Position numbers and translations under genes: made by a program. The notes below the pieces were generated by a model. It had not been told where the DNA came from, searched no databases, and saw only the letters and a list, made by a program, of their open reading frames with translations. From Flavivirga algicola (lineage in GTDB: Bacteria; Bacteroidota; Bacteroidia; Flavobacteriales; Flavobacteriaceae): 64,000 nucleotides of DNA. Where the stretch lies: assembly GCF_012910715.1 (NCBI RefSeq), contig NZ_JABBHF010000007.1:67001-131000 (forward strand), in the 5' to 3' direction. Shown piece after piece: positions 4,494 through 12,368 of this stretch (within the stretch, counting starts at the first letter, position 1; every line of letters begins with the position of its first letter).

Positions 4494-5075
4494 ATCTCTA
4501 CAAATTAATTAATGAGCTGTAGCTGCGTTTTAGCTTTTAAAAAGAAGACAAGTAATCAAGCTTCTCATTGTTTCTTTGCTCTTTAGCGGCATTGAAGATA
4601 TAACATTTTTTCTATTCTTAAAATATCTAAATATTTTACTACGATTAAAATTGTGATTAATTAATATTTTTGAAGAAATACCTTAAGAGAAATATTAGAA
4701 ATAAACGAAACCCTTGTAATATTATTTTTTTAATGATGGTTTAAGAGTTAAAACTAATTAAAAGAAAGCTTATGGTTTTTAGTTGTAGGACCTCTAATAG
4801 CTTATAATTTTATACTTCTATATAGCTGTAAGTATTTGTATACGTATTTTGTATATGTAGCTGTGTGCTTCTTTATGTTCTTAGGTGTTAAAGAGCATAT
4901 TTAAGACTTGAGTGTTATGAATTGTAAAATAATTTATAAAAAATATCATACGCCATTTCATTATAAGCGAATATTAAGTTTACATATAAATCTGAGTCTA
5001 TATTAGTGATTTGATAACCAAGAAAAGTAATTTTTATTTGCTCTAATAATTTAATTTCAGGCAATAGCTTTTTAG
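4494..5075. other. Gene-free region between the TRAP operon and the TonB receptor
   Basis: About 580 AT-rich bases without a credible coding frame, RNA gene or clear terminator. It must contain the start of the TRAP operon transcript (minus strand), but no exact TAnnTTTG box was found on that strand. The stretch around 4800-4870 is rich in short gta/tat steps without a clean repeat unit. Nothing else supportable was seen. Confidence 0.4.
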
Positions 5076-7529
5076 TTAAAAAAACAACTTAAAAGATATA
5101 TTAGGAGTAAACCCTAATGAAAAACGTTGAATGACTTGCTCCAATATTACTTCTAATTCTTCTGGTGTGGTTCCTGTAGTTCCAGGAATTGCAATACCAC
5201 CATCATTTAAAGGTTTGCGCTCCGCTTTATAAATTAAATCTAAAGGTTTTACTCTATTGTAAATATTTAAAAAAGACATCCCAACTTGCCCTTTTAAGGC
5301 TTTTGCTTTAGTATTGATATTAAAATCGTGTATTATGGAAGCATCTAAACGGTGAAAATCAGGTAATCTCCTACTATTTACTGAACCAAAATTAACAACT
5401 CCAGCTGGTTCTCCATCGGCATCAATTTTTACTTCGTAGCTATTAACTGGTGTAACAGGTTTACCAGATCTGTATTGCCAGCCTAATGAAAACTGCCATT
5501 TTTTTAGTTGCAACGTATTAGAAACTCTAAAGTGGTGCGTAATATCGTTGTTGCCTGGAAAACTTTCGGGTGTATCTTTTAGGTTAGGGAATTTAAATGA
5601 AATATCATTGAAAGTATAACCTGCCCATACTTTGTAGTTGTTGAACTTGTATTTTAATAATATGTCTAGTCCCTTAATGGTACTTTTTCCTTTTTCTAAA
5701 TTTTCTAAAGGATTGCTAAAACCATTGGTAAAGGTTGTTAAACCATCAAGTTCTTTGTAATACGCATCAACATCAATATTTAATTTATTATGATGATATA
5801 ATAGCCCCCCTGATACCTGATTACTACTTAAAAGTGGGAACTGTTCATTATCAGATAAACGCCATAATTGATTTTCTAATCGTAGTTCGGTATGATTAAA
5901 TTCAACCAACTGAGAAATGGGTTGATTTCTTCTTTCTATGGCAGTTTTAAATCTTAATTGATTATTTATCTGATATTCAAAATTAACACGAGGTTCTATT
6001 AAAAATTCGTCAAGAGCATTGTAATGCACCAACCTAAGCCCTCCACTTATCAAACTTTTGTTTTTAAAGTTAAATGTGTATTCTCCAAATAAAGCATTTT
6101 TCAAGTTATTATTATCTTGATTTGAGCTTTCTAATTCTGCATCAAAAGGACTTTCTTTACTAATTAGTATATCTAAATCTGTATAGGATAATTGATAGCC
6201 AATTTTAAGTTCTTGAGATTCTTTTATTTTTCTTGTAGATAAAAAATTTAAGCCAACATCTATAATATCATTTTTACGAATATTAATTTCTGATAAATCC
6301 CCAATACCATCTCCAGTTTCATCTTTAATCTCATTATTTTGATAAAACGAATTATACTCAGAGTAATAAGCCGTTAGTTTTTCATGTTGTCTTTCATTAG
6401 AAGCATGTTTCCAGTTAAAACTTACCCCTTTATTTTGAGTTATTAGCGAATCTAAAATCAACTCATTTCCTCCTGTAAAATTAAAGTCCAAGCGATTTCT
6501 AGTGTACAAACCACTTACCGATAGGGTATTTTTATTGTTTGGCTTATAAATTAATTTTGAATTAAAATCTGCAAAAGAAAAATCGTTATCACTTGTTTCA
6601 GGACTAAAATCATCATCTGTTTCTAATACCAAAGTATTTCCATTTATATCTTTTGCAACACCAAAATTGGTAAAGATTTTATCTTCGTAGCTATTATAAG
6701 TTGGTGTTTTAACAAGATCTGAATAAGATCTTCTGGCAAAAGCATACATGGCTACTTTTTTAGAAAAAGGGGCTTTTACGTATACGTTGGTAGAAATTCC
6801 ATCAATTTCAACGCCGCCTTCAGTTTTCTCTGGAATATTATCCCCACTGGTAATATCTATAATTCCCGAAATTCTATCTCCATAAACAGGACTTGTGCCA
6901 GACTTAAAAATGGTGGCTTTTTGTGTTGAAAATGGATTAAACAATGAAAACGTACCATAAAAATAGCCTGTATTATATAACTTAATATTATCATATAAAA
7001 TTAAGTTTTGATCTGGAGAACCGCCTCTAATTTGAATACCTGTAGCAGACTCATCTAAACTTGTAATACCTGGTATTAGTTGGATACTTTGCGCAATATC
7101 TGTTGACACTAAACCTGGAAGGATTCCCAATCTTTTTGTATTAACCTCTATTGAGCCATCTTTATTTCTATCAATACCAGTAGTTATATATCCAGTAATT
7201 ACAACTTCATCTAAAGACTGATTTTTAACAAAACCTTTATCTGGTGTAATTATAATTTGATTTTCAGATACTTTCTGAAATTTTAACCCTGTTTGTTCTT
7301 CCAGAAACGTTAAAAGTTCCTCTAATAAAACATTAGTGAGCTGCAATGTTATCTTTTTGTCTTCTGTAATAGCGTTTGCAAAAGAAAAAGTGACATTATA
7401 ATTTGTTTCAATATCTTTTATAACAGAAATTAATGGTGTCTCGGCGTAGTTAAAATTTAGTTTTTGTTGCGCATTAGCTACACTTACAGTAAATAAAGAC
7501 CATAATAAGAAACTATAAAAGTATTTCAT
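5076..7529 (-). CDS. TonB-dependent outer membrane receptor with STN domain (FecA-like)
   Basis: Outer membrane beta-barrel transporter energised by TonB, with an N-terminal signalling domain. Order in the 817 residues: signal peptide ending Ala-Asn-Ala-Gln near residue 21; STN (secretin/TonB short N-terminal) domain about 25-95; a TonB-box-like Asp-Glu-Val-Val-Ile-Thr-Gly near 110; plug domain about 115-230 with Ile-Arg-Gly-Gly-Ser-Pro-Asp-Gln-Asn; then the barrel ending in Phe-Phe, the usual terminal aromatic. The STN domain with FecR and sigma genes immediately upstream fits ligand-sensing cell-surface signalling. No SusD partner is present, so a siderophore, metal complex or other small ligand is more likely than a glycan, but this is not certain. 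Confidence 0.92.
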   Translation of the reverse strand: MKYFYSFLLWSLFTVSVANAQQKLNFNYAETPLISVIKDIETNYNVTFSFANAITEDKKITLQLTNVLLEELLTFLEEQTGLKFQKVSENQIIITPDKGFVKNQSLDEVVITGYITTGIDRNKDGSIEVNTKRLGILPGLVSTDIAQSIQLIPGITSLDESATGIQIRGGSPDQNLILYDNIKLYNTGYFYGTFSLFNPFSTQKATIFKSGTSPVYGDRISGIIDITSGDNIPEKTEGGVEIDGISTNVYVKAPFSKKVAMYAFARRSYSDLVKTPTYNSYEDKIFTNFGVAKDINGNTLVLETDDDFSPETSDNDFSFADFNSKLIYKPNNKNTLSVSGLYTRNRLDFNFTGGNELILDSLITQNKGVSFNWKHASNERQHEKLTAYYSEYNSFYQNNEIKDETGDGIGDLSEINIRKNDIIDVGLNFLSTRKIKESQELKIGYQLSYTDLDILISKESPFDAELESSNQDNNNLKNALFGEYTFNFKNKSLISGGLRLVHYNALDEFLIEPRVNFEYQINNQLRFKTAIERRNQPISQLVEFNHTELRLENQLWRLSDNEQFPLLSSNQVSGGLLYHHNKLNIDVDAYYKELDGLTTFTNGFSNPLENLEKGKSTIKGLDILLKYKFNNYKVWAGYTFNDISFKFPNLKDTPESFPGNNDITHHFRVSNTLQLKKWQFSLGWQYRSGKPVTPVNSYEVKIDADGEPAGVVNFGSVNSRRLPDFHRLDASIIHDFNINTKAKALKGQVGMSFLNIYNRVKPLDLIYKAERKPLNDGGIAIPGTTGTTPEELEVILEQVIQRFSLGFTPNISFKLFF

Positions 7530-7532
7530 GTT

Positions 7533-8444
7533 TTATTCAGATAGAATAATAAGATTATTTTTTGATCCTTTTTGATAAGTTATGCCCATAGGAGACAATG
7601 TTGTTTGTAGGGCATTCTTTAAATTATCATGTCTAAAACTACCTGAAAATATACGACTTGTATCTATATTATTTAACTGAAATGTAATAGGGTATATTTG
7701 CTGTAATTCTTCTAAAACATCCATTAATGGTTGGTTCTTAAATTTAGAAATACCTTGTTTCCAATCTGGTGTTTCTTCATTAAAATCAATTTTCTTCACC
7801 TTATTCTCTTCTATTAATACTTTCATTCCCTTAGTTAAAATAGAAGGTTCAGAGCTGAAATTATTATTTATAAAACTTACCTTCCCTTCATAACACTTAA
7901 GCTCAAAATAAGACCTATCTTTAATATTAAATTCGGTGCCTAAAACTTCCACTTTTCCTTTTGATGTACTTACAACAAAATCATCCCCTTTTTTAACCAC
8001 AAAATAGGCTTCTCCAGTAAAGTCTACCTCTCTATTATTTTCCCAAAAGAAACGTTTATGAGATAATTTAGAATTAGCATTTAAATCTATTATAGACCCA
8101 TCTGCTAAAGTAACGCTCATTGTTTCGCCGATACCAGTGGTATATGTTTTTGAAGAATTTAAAAAGACACCTAAGCCAATTAAAACAGCTGCCGCCGCGG
8201 CAACAGAGTACCACAGACGAAAAACTTTAGTTTTATTCCTCTTAGTATTAATTTTCTGTTTAACCTTTTCTAAAGCAGTATCAGTATTTATATCAGGACC
8301 TTTCAATAATTGAGATTCTCTATTAATAATACTTAATTGCTTGTAGGTATCTGTTTTTTCAAAGCCAATACGCTCTTCTTTGGTAAGCGTTCCCGCTATC
8401 CATCTTGCTAAAAAAGTATCGTCTGCATCGTAATTTTCAATCAT
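7533..8444 (-). CDS. FecR family anti-sigma factor
   Basis: Inner membrane regulator that holds the neighbouring ECF sigma factor and receives a signal from the receptor's STN domain. The 303-residue protein has a cytoplasmic N-terminal part, one membrane helix at about 77-97, a FecR domain at about 105-200 in the periplasm and a C-terminal DUF4974-like domain from about 230. It lies between the sigma gene and the receptor, 3 bp from the receptor start, so the two are surely co-transcribed. Confidence 0.92.
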   Translation of the reverse strand: MIENYDADDTFLARWIAGTLTKEERIGFEKTDTYKQLSIINRESQLLKGPDINTDTALEKVKQKINTKRNKTKVFRLWYSVAAAAAVLIGLGVFLNSSKTYTTGIGETMSVTLADGSIIDLNANSKLSHKRFFWENNREVDFTGEAYFVVKKGDDFVVSTSKGKVEVLGTEFNIKDRSYFELKCYEGKVSFINNNFSSEPSILTKGMKVLIEENKVKKIDFNEETPDWKQGISKFKNQPLMDVLEELQQIYPITFQLNNIDTSRIFSGSFRHDNLKNALQTTLSPMGITYQKGSKNNLIILSE

Positions 8445-8491
8445 AAACCTTTTGTCTTATTAACTAGACACTTAAAACTGTAAATACCCTA

Positions 8492-9010
8492 TTATATTTT
8501 AATATCTTTTCCTAAAACCTCTCGTAGCTCTTTTAATGCTTTACTCATCCTACGTTCTATGGCTTTTACCGTAAGTCCTGTTATTTCTGCTATTTCTCTA
8601 TATGTTTTTTGTTCAACTCTACTTAATAAAAAGACTTCTCGTTCTTTTACGGACAATTCATTGATAGCATCTTTTAGCTTTGTTCTGAATTCATTTACTT
8701 CAATTAAAAAATCAGGACTTTCGTAATCTGTATTAGCAATAACATCCTGTTGATGCCTTAAAACTACTTTTTGATGTTTTATCTCGTTTAAGAATGAATT
8801 GTTGCAGGCTCTATAGATATAAGATTTAGCTTTAGAAAATGAAATAGTAGCACATAATTGCCAAAGTTTTACAAATATATTTTGAACAATATCTTCGGCC
8901 TGTTGCAAATCACCACACTTGTAATAGATGTATTTGGTAACCTGTTCATAATACTTATGAAACAATTCATTGTAATTTTTTTCTTCACAAACAGAAGGTT
9001 CTTGGGGCAT
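8492..9010 (-). CDS. ECF RNA polymerase sigma factor (FecI-like)
   Basis: Alternative sigma factor predicted to activate the receptor operon and possibly other targets. In 172 residues, sigma region 2 spans about 12-80 (Asp-Ile-Val-Gln-Asn-Ile-Phe-Val-Lys-Leu-Trp) and region 4 about 112-165 (Leu-Ser-Val-Lys-Glu-Arg-Glu-Val-Phe and an HTH with Tyr-Arg-Glu-Ile-Ala). It heads the sigma-FecR-receptor operon. The 100-bp gap to the divergent thioredoxin/ApbE cluster may hold promoters for both. Confidence 0.93.
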   Translation of the reverse strand: MPQEPSVCEEKNYNELFHKYYEQVTKYIYYKCGDLQQAEDIVQNIFVKLWQLCATISFSKAKSYIYRACNNSFLNEIKHQKVVLRHQQDVIANTDYESPDFLIEVNEFRTKLKDAINELSVKEREVFLLSRVEQKTYREIAEITGLTVKAIERRMSKALKELREVLGKDIKI

Positions 9011-9110: not shown

Positions 9111-9536
9111 ATGAAAAAAATAATTTTTATAGTTATCCTTCTTTTTACAAGCTTAAGTTTTTCTCAAGAGTGGGAAACTAATCTTAACAAAGCAAAATCT
9201 TTAGCCAAAGAAAAAAATCAAAATATCGTTTTGGTATTTTCTGGATCCGATTGGTGTGCACCATGTATTAAATTAGAAAGAGAAGTGTTTGATACCAATA
9301 CTTTTAAAGCTTATTCAAAAGACAATTTTGTGATGCTAAAGGCAGATTTTCCTAGAAGAAAAAAGAATGCCCTACCAAAAACACAAGAAACTCATAATAA
9401 ACAATTAGCAGAACGATATAATTCTAAAGGGTATTTCCCTCTAGTTGTAGTTTTAAATGAAAAAGGCAATGTCTTAAAAGAATTAGGATATGTAAAAACG
9501 ACTCCTCAAGGTTTTATTGATTTAATAAATAACTAA
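9111..9536 (+). CDS. Secreted thioredoxin-fold protein, first gene of the ApbE/DUF4266/DUF3570 cluster
   Basis: Thiol-disulfide oxidoreductase of the thioredoxin fold acting outside the cytoplasm. The 141 residues begin with a signal peptide (cleavage near Ser-Phe-Ser-Gln19). The active site is Trp48-Cys49-Ala-Pro-Cys52 within Ser-Gly-Ser-Asp-Trp-Cys, and the cis-Pro loop is near Gly-Tyr-Phe-Pro-Leu. It is 5 bp from apbE and leads a plus-strand cluster. A likely role is keeping the cysteines of the DUF4266 tail reduced or delivering electrons to the system; this is inferred from context. Confidence 0.88.
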   Translation: MKKIIFIVILLFTSLSFSQEWETNLNKAKSLAKEKNQNIVLVFSGSDWCAPCIKLEREVFDTNTFKAYSKDNFVMLKADFPRRKKNALPKTQETHNKQLAERYNSKGYFPLVVVLNEKGNVLKELGYVKTTPQGFIDLINN

Positions 9537-9541
9537 TCTGT

Positions 9542-10537
9542 ATGATGCTAAGAAAGTTCATATTATACGTATTCTTTTTGAGTGTACAAGGGATTCACTC
9601 TCAAGAAACATGTAAGCGTACATTGCTGCTAATGGGGAGTCGGTTTGACATTACTGTAGTTGCCGCCAATCAAGAAAAAGCGAATAACTACATTGATATT
9701 GCTATAACAGAAATTACAAGAATTGAAAAGCTAATTTCTTCATGGGATCCCAATTCTCAAACCTCACTAATTAACAAAAATGCTGGTATACGAGCTATGA
9801 AGGTTGATTTAGAATTATTTCAACTTATAGAAAGAGCCATTCACATTTCTAAACTTACCGATGGCGCTTTTGATATTAGTTACGCCTCTATGGATCGTAT
9901 TTGGAAATTTGATGGTAGTATGACCAAAATACCTTCTAAAACAGATATAAAGAATTCTGTTTCAAAGGTTGGATATCAAAACATCATTTTAGATAAAGAC
10001 AAACAAACCATTTTTTTAAAATACAAAGGCATGAAAATTGGCTTTGGTGGCATTGGTAAAGGCTATGCTGCAGATAAAGCTAAAAGTGTTCTTAAGACTA
10101 AAGGTGTTGTTGCTGGAATTATTAATGCTTCTGGAGATTTAAACGCTTGGGGTAAACAAACCAATGGAGATTATTGGAGTGTTGCCATTAAAAACCCATT
10201 AAATAAAAATAAGGTTTTTGCTTTATTACCCATTTATGAAAACGCGGTGGTTACCTCTGGAAATTACGAAAAAAGAGTAACACTTAACGGTAAGACATTC
10301 TCTCATATTATAGACCCCAGAACGGGCTACCCTAGTAGCGGATTAGTGAGTGCAAGTGTCTTTGCTTCTAGTGCAGAATTAGCTGACGCTTTAGCGACAT
10401 CCATTTTTGTAATGGGGAAAGATGTGGGTTTAGATTTTATAAATCAATTAAAGGCTATAGACTGCATTTTAGTTGATGATGAAGGTAAAGTATACTATTC
10501 CAACAATGTTAAAACAGAAGAAAATAAAACACAATAG
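9542..10537 (+). CDS. apbE: FAD:protein FMN transferase (ApbE)
   Basis: Transfers FMN from FAD to Thr/Ser of exported proteins using Mg2+. The 331 residues start with a signal peptide (near His-Ser-Gln21), so it works in the periplasm. Family motifs visible: Ser-Ser-Trp-Asp-Pro-Asn-Ser near 66, Gly-Gly-Ile-Gly-Lys-Gly-Tyr-Ala-Ala-Asp (FAD-binding loop) near 173, and His-Ile-Ile-Asp-Pro-Arg-Thr-Gly near 257 (metal/FAD site). The gene abuts the DUF4266 gene (no gap). No Nqr, Rnf or fumarate-reductase-type FMN acceptor is encoded nearby, so its substrate may be within this cluster. Confidence 0.95.
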   Translation: MMLRKFILYVFFLSVQGIHSQETCKRTLLLMGSRFDITVVAANQEKANNYIDIAITEITRIEKLISSWDPNSQTSLINKNAGIRAMKVDLELFQLIERAIHISKLTDGAFDISYASMDRIWKFDGSMTKIPSKTDIKNSVSKVGYQNIILDKDKQTIFLKYKGMKIGFGGIGKGYAADKAKSVLKTKGVVAGIINASGDLNAWGKQTNGDYWSVAIKNPLNKNKVFALLPIYENAVVTSGNYEKRVTLNGKTFSHIIDPRTGYPSSGLVSASVFASSAELADALATSIFVMGKDVGLDFINQLKAIDCILVDDEGKVYYSNNVKTEENKTQ

Positions 10538-10747
10538 ATGAAAAAGTTAATAATTGTATTGATGACAATAGCAAGTTTAAGCGCCTGTGTAGCTGTTAAA
10601 GAATATGAAAAAGTAAATATTAATGATCCCGATATGAAACTATCGTCAATGACTATTGATCGGTTTGAAACCAATTTTCAAGTATATCGAGAAGCGGCCT
10701 CTGGAGCTAACGGTGGAAAAACCGGTGGCGGTTGCGGCTGTAATTAA
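10538..10747 (+). CDS. DUF4266 family small lipoprotein with C-terminal Cys-Gly-Cys
   Basis: A 69-residue exported protein of unknown function. A lipobox Leu-Ser-Ala-Cys17 leaves a mature chain of about 53 residues. The middle (Asp-Pro-Asp-Met-Lys, then Arg-Phe-Glu-Thr) is polar, and the tail from 55 is Ser-Gly-Ala-Asn followed by a Gly-rich stretch ending Gly-Cys66-Gly-Cys68-Asn. The paired cysteines could bind metal, form a disulfide or be modified. Ser55-Gly-Ala resembles the ApbE acceptor motif except that Asn replaces the acceptor Thr/Ser. It starts directly after the apbE stop. Family assignment is from the typical tail and the neighbours. Confidence 0.85.
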   Translation: MKKLIIVLMTIASLSACVAVKEYEKVNINDPDMKLSSMTIDRFETNFQVYREAASGANGGKTGGGCGCN

Positions 10748-10799
10748 GTGAAACCCATTTTTTGTGAACATAGAGAGACAAAAAATGATGGTTGAACTT

Positions 10800-10821
10800 A
10801 TCCTGAGCACAGTCGAAGGAT
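10800..10821. repeat. Dispersed palindromic repeat, family A
   Basis: The 22-bp imperfect palindrome atcctgagcacagtcgaagg-at lies between the DUF4266 and DUF3570 genes. Its core, ctgagcNNagtcgaag, recurs at 25402-25475 (two inverted copies) and 55685-55706, with related sites at 38091-38110 and 42791-42862. Confidence 0.75.
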
Positions 10822-10889
10822 CTTTTAAAAACAATGTCCCTAAATACAAACCCGCTTTACAGTGAGTTTTTAAACAATAATGCATTTAC

Positions 10890-12368
10890 ATGAAATTTAC
10901 CTTATCCCTAATATTATTCTTGTTTTATACTTCTTTTGTTTTTTCTCAAACTAAACAAAAAGATTCAATTAGCTCATATAAGAAAAGAGTTTTAGAAACT
11001 ACAGAAATAGATTTCCTAATGAGTTATTATCAACAAGAGGGAAATCATGCTTCTGTAGCTGGCGGCATAGGAAATGAGGATCTTACCGATATTACGCCAA
11101 CATTTGTAGTTGCCATCCCTTTAAATGCTGATGATGTATTAACTATAGATGCTGGTATTTCAACTTATACCTCGGCATCCTCCAGTAATCTTGACCCTTT
11201 TGATGCTAGCGGTGCTTCTAATGGTAATGGATATGATGACGATGATGATAAAACTGTCGTTAAGAAACAATCATCAGCTTCAAATGTTACAGGAAGTCCA
11301 TGGGTAGCTTCTTCAGGGGCTTCAAGTCAAGATACTTGGGGAGGTATAAATGCTAGTTATAGTCATAGCTCTAATGATAGAAATACAATTTGGTCGGCAA
11401 ATGCTGCCTTTGCTACAGAATATGACTATGCTTCTTTTGGTTTTGGAGCAGGGTTCACCAAACTGTTCAATGAAAAAAATACAGAAATAAGCTTAAAAGC
11501 TCAGGTATATTTAGACACCTGGAACCCCAAGTACCCTACAGAATTGGATTCTTATTTGGAAGCTGGACAAAACTTAAATAATGGTTTCTTCAATGGTATT
11601 GATATCTTAGACCAAAGCGGTAATGCTATTGATAAAAACTCAGCTACTGCTTGGTCGCCATTCAATACCACACTCATACAAGATAGATCAAGAAATTCTT
11701 TTACGTTATCACTTAGTTTTTCTCAAATTTTAAGCAAAAATGCTCAATTCTCAATATTTTTAGATTTAGTACAACAGAAAGGCTGGTTAGCCAACCCCAT
11801 GCAACGTGTATATTTCCAAGATCGTGCCAATTATTACATTGGTAACGCAACTAGTATTCCAAACTATGCCTCTCCTACAAATAGAGATGTATTTCACTTA
11901 GCTGATGATATTGAGCGTTTACCCAATTCAAGGTTTAAAATTCCAATTGGAGCCAGATTCAATTACTATATTAATGAAACTGTTTCACTAAGAGCATACT
12001 ATCGTTATTACTTTGATGATTGGGGCATTAATTCGCATACAGCAAGTATAGAGTTACCTGTGAAATTAGCTCAGGGTAAATTTGCTATATACCCAACGTA
12101 TCGTTATTATAACCAAACTGCAGCAGATTATTTTGCGACCTATGAATCGCATTTATCAACTTCAGAATTTTATACATCAGATTACGATTTATCTGAATTT
12201 AATAGCAATCAATATGGCTTAGGACTGAGGTATACAGATATATTCACAAAGTTTAAAATTTTCAATTGTGGCCTTAAGTCATTTGATATCAAGTATAGCA
12301 TCTACAATAGAAGTGATGGGCTAAAAGCAGGCATTCTATCTACAGGCTTTAAATTTATTTTAGATTAA
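10890..12368 (+). CDS. DUF3570 family outer membrane protein
   Basis: An uncharacterised exported protein of 492 residues that looks like an outer membrane beta-barrel. It has a signal peptide (cut near Val-Phe-Ser-Gln20), alternating aromatic/polar strands through most of its length and a C-terminal stretch ending Gly-Phe-Lys-Phe-Ile-Leu-Asp. An insertion at about 100-150 is Ser/Gly-rich with an acidic run Asp116-Asp120 and contains Asp105-Ala-Ser-Gly-Ala-Ser110 and Ser141-Ser-Gly-Ala-Ser-Ser146, both similar to the Ser/Thr-Gly-Ala-Thr/Ser motif that ApbE modifies. Known homologues commonly sit with DUF4266, ApbE and thioredoxin genes, as here. Function is unknown. Confidence 0.85.
   Translation: MKFTLSLILFLFYTSFVFSQTKQKDSISSYKKRVLETTEIDFLMSYYQQEGNHASVAGGIGNEDLTDITPTFVVAIPLNADDVLTIDAGISTYTSASSSNLDPFDASGASNGNGYDDDDDKTVVKKQSSASNVTGSPWVASSGASSQDTWGGINASYSHSSNDRNTIWSANAAFATEYDYASFGFGAGFTKLFNEKNTEISLKAQVYLDTWNPKYPTELDSYLEAGQNLNNGFFNGIDILDQSGNAIDKNSATAWSPFNTTLIQDRSRNSFTLSLSFSQILSKNAQFSIFLDLVQQKGWLANPMQRVYFQDRANYYIGNATSIPNYASPTNRDVFHLADDIERLPNSRFKIPIGARFNYYINETVSLRAYYRYYFDDWGINSHTASIELPVKLAQGKFAIYPTYRYYNQTAADYFATYESHLSTSEFYTSDYDLSEFNSNQYGLGLRYTDIFTKFKIFNCGLKSFDIKYSIYNRSDGLKAGILSTGFKFILD

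Follow-up and report, generated by a model that had tools for sequence, protein, structure and literature searches.

The question raised by this locus is which protein receives the flavin, and to what end, when a flavin transferase is encoded within a small cluster of exported proteins. The DNA studied was a 64,000-nucleotide stretch of Flavivirga algicola contig NZ_JABBHF010000007.1 (hereafter the window), in which a cluster at 9111..12368 encodes a thioredoxin, ApbE and members of the families DUF4266 and DUF3570. Judged by sequence, the cluster is a member of an already described system, as all four families are present. It probably constitutes an outer-membrane flavin electron-transfer system, in which DsbD, the thioredoxin, a dithiol of DUF4266 and flavin mononucleotide (FMN) on a DUF3570 barrel would hand electrons to an external acceptor; we infer the thiol-to-flavin step, the direction of the electrons and the final acceptor.

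The open reading frames (ORFs) were checked from the sequence. The first gene (9111..9536, plus strand) encodes an exported thioredoxin-fold protein of 141 residues with the active site WCAPC (Thioredoxin_7, PF13899; E 1.7e-15, 57.3 bits against a cut-off of 27). The second, apbE (9542..10537, plus strand), encodes an exported FAD:protein FMN transferase (FAD, flavin adenine dinucleotide) of 331 residues (PF02424; E 6.1e-82, 275.6 bits, cut-off 25.6) containing GKGYAAD and DALAT, which we take, together with their roles, to be ApbE motifs. It is followed by the small DUF4266 lipoprotein (10538..10747, plus strand; 69 residues, C-terminus GGGCGCN), with a Pfam E-value of 1.2e-19, above the curated cut-off. 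The last gene (10890..12368, plus strand) encodes a DUF3570 protein of 492 residues (PF12094; E 2.7e-38, 132.3 bits, cut-off 25), the predicted 16-strand barrel and putative FMN acceptor. The intergenic gaps were 5 bp, 0 bp (TAG then ATG) and 142 bp. As judged by eye without a predictor, type I signals are present in the thioredoxin, ApbE and DUF3570 proteins (...SFSQ/EW, ...HSQ/ET and ...VFSQ/TK, respectively), and DUF4266 has the lipobox LSAC. The first-pass annotation, made from the sequence alone, had described four exported plus-strand products and a tight packing of the first three genes, and both points agree with the frames, Pfam matches, signals and measured gaps. No match to FMN_bind (PF04205) was found by Pfam in the four proteins, and no heme motif CxxCH was seen in their translations.

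Gene clusters that combine ApbE with DUF3570, thioredoxin and DUF4266, some of them also with DsbD, were described by Meheust et al. in 2021 (PMC8238504), so the earlier label "uncharacterised" cannot be kept for this cluster type. In that work E. coli was the host in which the cognate ApbE flavinylated a Chlorobium luteolum DUF3570 protein, and the modification was abolished only after both [S/T]GA[S/T] serines were replaced. The view that neither DUF family has an assigned function is therefore out of date for DUF3570. It was also reported that clusters with DsbD usually contain DUF3570 and a thioredoxin-like protein as well, together with a DUF4266 in which the CXC at the C-terminus "may undergo redox cycling". 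DsbD is unlinked in another 316 clusters, and VIT1 was noted in 25 clusters; the function of the cluster type was left uncertain there. The present cluster has the same families, including Thioredoxin_7 (PF13899) and a DUF4266 with a CXC tail; it differs in its unlinked DsbD, in a first site reading TSAS instead of [ST]GA[ST], and in a loop with four motif matches. The terms "barrel", "lipoprotein" and "Rieske" are absent from the main text of PMC8238504, figures and supplements being outside this statement. A 2024 follow-up (PMC11334425) models other ApbE targets and was not retrieved under the term DUF3570. In the literature searched (supplements, figures and most subscription journals outside its scope), DUF3570 and DUF4266 were named only in PMC8238504, and nothing on a flavinylated outer-membrane barrel in electron transfer was found, as judged by titles and abstract openings.

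The constancy of the gene set was evaluated in 395 genomes of the phylum. DUF4266 was found in 113 and DUF3570 in 118, all of the 113 lying within the 118. From the hits, 78 loci (L035-L112) were hand-picked and fetched besides the window, covering every hit genome outside the genome family taken as Chlorobiaceae (f18) and 23 loci of that family, with DUF3570-only loci deliberately included. Near-identical relatives were counted separately, and linkage refers to the same strand unless stated. Among the 73 DUF4266 genes of this set, DUF3570 lies within 1.5 kb of 72, ApbE within 5 kb of 69 and a thioredoxin-fold gene within 3 kb of 67 (62 before a search with the Chlorobiaceae type of thioredoxin was included). 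DsbD (within 7 kb, 14/73), VIT1 (within 5 kb on either strand, 13/73) and a Rieske-type protein (within 4 kb, 11/73) were less regular neighbours. Seen from the 82 DUF3570 genes, DUF4266 was within 5 kb in 75 cases and ApbE within 7 kb in 73. The two DUF families do not, then, occur mostly apart from apbE in these loci, an outcome that would have spoken against the first-pass reading. Since the families co-occur in genomes and the genes stand together in nearly all the loci examined, the cluster is not a chance arrangement.

A wider scan with a GGGCGCN-stop DNA pattern, which by its design is unfit for testing the constancy of the tail, returned at least 118 stretches, many of them metagenome bins. 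Profile matches at E 0.01 comprised 115 DUF4266 and 111 DUF3570 genes among the matches listed; ORFs were opened at the first start codon, which makes some proteins N-terminally overlong, and for six of the 115 DUF4266 genes the end of the stretch is no more than 400 bases away. Among these listed matches, DUF3570 directly follows DUF4266 in 102 of 115. Five of the other 13 lie within 400 bases of the stretch end with no DUF3570 in view, six have a same-strand DUF3570 nearby, one has it on the opposite strand and one (L148) has none. In the 37 listed stretches with 1.5 kb on both sides, apbE was present in 28. By their labels, the listed stretches come from Bacteroidota, Chlorobiaceae, Gamma- and Betaproteobacteria, Campylobacterales, Myxococcales, Verrucomicrobia, Holophagaceae, Elusimicrobiales and others. 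Two of them, L202 and L204, contained none of the cluster genes and are probably chance pattern matches.

Some loci deserve separate mention. The stretch L137, labelled as a Klebsiella pneumoniae metagenome-assembled genome (HRS-ES1-bin-390), contains a Flavobacteriaceae-type thioredoxin-apbE-DUF4266-DUF3570 cluster and is very likely a mislabelled bin. A Shewanella frigidimarina genome (G399; L237, C12:529585-531779) has a second DUF3570 (601 bits) beside ApbE, apart from the copy linked to DUF4266. Several DUF3570 copies, some in tandem and some without DUF4266, were seen in Chlorobiaceae (L038, L108 and others), and in L038 a protein resembling immunoglobulin repeats, with an N-terminal SGAS, is encoded at 5417-6730 between two of them. 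An origin from a plasmid or metal-resistance island was considered and rejected: no plasmid match was obtained for a Duganella DUF3570, and those of the window protein were confined to two Hymenobacter plasmids.

DUF3570 is predicted to be an outer-membrane beta-barrel. Two AlphaFold models from two lineages, one of them the window protein, have 16 strands each, with 206 and 33 loop residues on the long and short sides in one model and 108 and 23 in the other. Closure of the barrel was deduced from matches to solved barrels rather than from model coordinates. These matches (OmpG, BcsC and CymA) agree in fold and strand order, at 8-13% identity in the structural alignments, a likeness confined to the DUF3570 fold; these barrels are not known to have flavin sites. 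The models and fold matches are in line with the outer-membrane location proposed in the first-pass annotation. No cytochrome porin was among the structure matches listed, an absence that by itself proves nothing. Mean conservation did not differ significantly between the outer and inner halves of the strands (p 0.07 and 0.45), and a skew was seen only among the 45 positions of highest conservation, with 22 against 4 and 23 against 5 in the outer and inner halves. No conserved cysteine was found in DUF3570.

In both predicted models the two flavin sites fall in one loop, between strands 3 and 4, on the extracellular side (11169..11333 in the window, plus strand). The alignment of 82 DUF3570 proteins revealed two conserved positions, occupied by [ST]GAS in Chlorobiaceae and by [ST]SAS at one or both in many other loci. 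The loop of the window protein reads TSAS, SGAS, SSAS and SGAS. Conserved site 1 is the variant TSAS (11169..11180) and conserved site 2 the last SGAS (11313..11324); the extra SGAS (11208..11219) and SSAS (11271..11282) belong to a lineage-specific, Asp-rich insertion bearing DDDDD. The strict motif thus occurs twice, at residues 107-110 and 142-145, only the latter at a family-conserved position. The motif was counted in 182 DUF3570 proteins from both surveys, for which 100 of the 111 wider-scan matches were kept (ten shorter than 340 residues and one of 939 were dropped), in a loop window chosen after the motif had been seen and slightly wider than the predicted loop. It was found that [ST][GS]A[ST] occurs 310 times in the 7365 residues around the strand 3-4 loop and 26 times in the other 69352, with G at the second position of the loop motifs in 160 cases and S in 150. 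At least two loop sites were present in 124 proteins and one in 44. The flavinylation motif is, on this sequence evidence, better written [ST][GS]A[ST]. It seems that [ST]SA[ST] also serves as an ApbE site, because it occupies the same conserved position and because the NqrC (IAGAT) and NqrB (ISGET) sites of the same genome, placed where we presume flavinylation to occur, deviate as well. NqrB (L116, 7203-8429) contains DAISGETI, where SGAT would presumably be expected.

The second DUF protein shows a different kind of conservation. Cys17, Met33, Glu52 and GGCGC are invariant in 39 aligned DUF4266 sequences (in the window, the lipobox Cys17 is at 10586-10588 and the CGC at 10733-10741, plus strand), and all 73 profile-found proteins end in CGC plus one or two residues. 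Of the 188 DUF4266 proteins from the phylum loci and the listed wider-scan stretches, 180 have a recognisable lipobox, and none of the 180 has Asp at +2 or the acidic export signal. By the lipoprotein sorting rules, such proteins are expected in the outer membrane facing the periplasm, and DUF4266 looks like a lipoprotein of this kind. Exposure on the surface was rejected, as two acidic residues at +2 to +5, sought after the consensus of the Bacteroidota surface-export signal, occur in none of the 180. DUF4266 was likewise rejected as flavin acceptor: [ST][GS]A[ST] was present in the last 60 residues of only two of the 188 proteins, once within the signal peptide. The first-pass idea that one of the DUF proteins accepts the flavin can accordingly be retained for DUF3570, which has a flavinylated homologue (PMC8238504) and four loop motifs, and abandoned for DUF4266, with 186 of 188 proteins free of the motif in their last 60 residues.

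As DUF3570 lacks a conserved cysteine, disulfide exchange with DUF4266 is unlikely, and transfer from dithiol to flavin would be the simplest chemistry between them. Flavin potentials make FMN reducible in the range around -167 mV. The E'o cited for a CGC disulfide is -167 mV (PMC4316792).

The thioredoxin slot is filled in more than one way. Thioredoxin_7 predominates in the window's family and in relatives of the class, and in the genomes taken as Chlorobiaceae each of the 18 DUF4266 genes fetched has a WCGPC protein no farther than 600 bases away; the one scanned was of redoxin/AhpC-TSA type (Pfam). The assignment to Chlorobiaceae is supported by a chlorosome protein, which was found in four of four genomes tested of this family and in one of another (f16), and was absent from the window's genome and from one class relative. 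The presence of a different thioredoxin-fold member in the same slot argues, at the level of sequence, for a functional link of thioredoxin with DUF4266. It is plausible that the thioredoxin keeps the flavoprotein reduced. As a periplasmic thioredoxin and an outer-face loop are on opposite sides of the membrane, an intermediate, such as DUF4266, or a folded-in loop would be needed.

Two further observations concern this slot. In L050 a single ORF (5003-6433), located upstream of the two DUF genes DUF4266 and DUF3570, encodes both thioredoxin and ApbE as a fusion. A family of small secreted proteins is encoded directly upstream of the thioredoxin in 11 loci (L046, L049, L051, L058, L059, L064, L080, L082, L084, L087 and L089), with CxH...CxxH in 10 of the 11; the one scanned by Pfam was a Rieske [2Fe-2S] protein. 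It may be an additional electron carrier of the system.

Two ApbE genes were found in the genome, which comprises 5.0 Mb in 37 contigs. The second is at 231.3 kb of contig C35, about 5 kb downstream of the nqrA-F operon, which was named by inspecting its translations. The sole FMN_bind match of the genome is NqrC, in that operon about 143 kb from the cluster on the same contig, and the earlier statement that no such target is nearby was thereby borne out. With no FMN_bind target near the cluster and the other ApbE beside nqr, DUF3570 is the obvious target, and the cluster ApbE probably has its own substrate, distinct from that of the Nqr ApbE. The two systems are alike in ApbE-attached FMN and, to go by gene proximity, in one ApbE per target; they differ in targets (NqrB and NqrC, which are inner-membrane proteins), in sites and in location. 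A DsbD of 757 residues, the genome's only DsbD_TM match above cut-off, is encoded on contig C10.

Based on these results, the following mechanism is proposed. Periplasmic ApbE would attach FMN by phosphoester bonds to serines of one DUF3570 loop, probably before the protein is inserted and forms its 16-strand barrel in the outer membrane; this order would be required if ApbE is periplasmic and the loop lies outside. The published DUF3570 substrate, which lacked its signal peptide, went largely to the cell pellet and was purified denatured but was still flavinylated (PMC8238504), which fits this order. Electrons would pass from cytosolic thioredoxin to DsbD, encoded elsewhere, then to the exported thioredoxin, to the Cys-Gly-Cys tail of the DUF4266 lipoprotein and to the FMN pair on DUF3570. 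The gap between the periplasmic thiols and the outer flavins could be bridged either by mature DUF4266, of about 50 residues, reaching through the barrel or by an inward-folded loop. From the FMNs, electrons would reach an acceptor that is either extracellular or located at the outer mouth; an oxidised metal ion, for instance Fe(III), is the most likely candidate. This acceptor is a first guess, to which VIT1, RND (resistance-nodulation-division)/CusB genes and the Asp-rich loop lend weak support.

A more specific form of the proposal, which we put forward tentatively and hold to be possible rather than probable, is that DUF3570 and DUF4266 form a cytochrome-free outer-membrane electron conduit. 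The lipoprotein would be anchored in the inner leaflet, its flexible glycine-rich tail would extend up the lumen, and CGC would reduce the two FMNs at the outer mouth. Thiol electrons supplied by DsbD would in this way leave without heme. In Mtr-type porin-cytochrome conduits a barrel with redox centres is served by a periplasmic electron feeder. The likeness, if the model holds, lies in the outer-membrane barrel, the redox centres and the feeder; here, in contrast, CxxCH is lacking and the cofactors would be covalent FMN and a dithiol.

Several findings weigh against the electron-transfer system. If the loop is truly outside, periplasmic thiols could touch the flavins only when either the loop itself or the tail of DUF4266 extends into the barrel, and this loop is the least certain region of the window model (predicted local distance difference test, pLDDT, mostly <50). 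Fourteen of the 182 DUF3570 proteins lack a strict loop motif, several having near-versions such as ASAS. For nine of 82 DUF3570 genes no apbE lies within 7 kb, for six of 73 DUF4266 genes a thioredoxin was not recognised up to 3 kb away, and the acceptor-related neighbour is not fixed, as the counts for VIT1 and Rieske proteins indicate. Nine of the 37 well-framed stretches are without apbE; its loss was considered for them and rejected, because seven of the nine genomes encode ApbE elsewhere, and L141 and L230, which have none, are both metagenome bins. No DsbD gene is linked to the cluster in the window. The cluster thus lies outside the DsbD-linked subset, a linkage that is not required since the 316 published clusters also do without it (PMC8238504).

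The same evidence can be read otherwise. If the Cys-Gly-Cys of DUF4266 were a copper or iron ligand, the barrel would move metal, the flavin would change its valence and the thioredoxin would only keep the cysteines reduced. The VIT1 iron/manganese transporters (Pfam family) near 13 of 73 DUF4266 genes would suit this, as would the CusB-like genes (Pfam), the RND-type efflux genes (by eye) and the two-component genes that some loci from the window's family contain, and the Asp-rich stretch within the window protein's flavin loop. Such metal-gene neighbours are, however, inconstant, and the recurrence of DsbD and thioredoxin across lineages, with thioredoxin types interchanged, fits a dithiol in flux, which makes this explanation unlikely. 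Less probable still is an inward flow, in which an external donor would reduce the outer flavins and periplasmic carriers would take the electrons over. The topology favours neither direction, a c-type cytochrome (protein family f22) and a cupredoxin-like protein (f21) stand beside some Chlorobiaceae clusters (five loci each), and the Rieske-type proteins lie directly upstream of the thioredoxin in 11 loci. Against this, the DsbD family delivers reducing power outward, and dithiol relays usually reduce.

Thioredoxin/DsbD pathways also act in repair, and the thioredoxin and DUF4266 could reduce damaged thiols or methionine sulfoxides of outer-membrane proteins, with the flavin as local reductant. 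A flavin-bearing barrel would, however, be an odd repair enzyme. No methionine sulfoxide reductase was found among the annotated recurrent neighbours, a weak argument as only nine representatives besides DUF3570 were scanned. We regard repair as very improbable.

The surroundings of the cluster were also inspected. An extracytoplasmic function (ECF) sigma/FecR/TonB receptor set (STN/FecR_C domain) at 5076-9010 is on the minus strand, divergent and 100 bp from the cluster, and hints at iron control; it was rejected as a part of the system, being divergent and made up of families present in fewer than three of the compared loci. Downstream, a small helix-turn-helix protein and a large secreted one are encoded, whose families are equally infrequent in the compared loci. 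Between DUF4266 and DUF3570 the gap contains, at 10801-10822, TCCTGAGCACAGTCGAAGGATC, whose core CTGAGCRCAGTCGAAGG occurs three times genome-wide (reversed control 0) and is perhaps a remnant of a dispersed repeat.

The new part of this work is a testable model of the flavin positions on an outer-membrane barrel. The wider motif [ST][GS]A[ST] would alter the prediction of ApbE targets in Bacteroidota. With a predicted flavin loop on the extracellular side and a lipoprotein dithiol, bacteria may have a route for thiol electrons through the outer membrane that needs no cytochromes; such a conduit, if true, would be present in Bacteroidota, Chlorobiaceae, many Gammaproteobacteria and other phyla.

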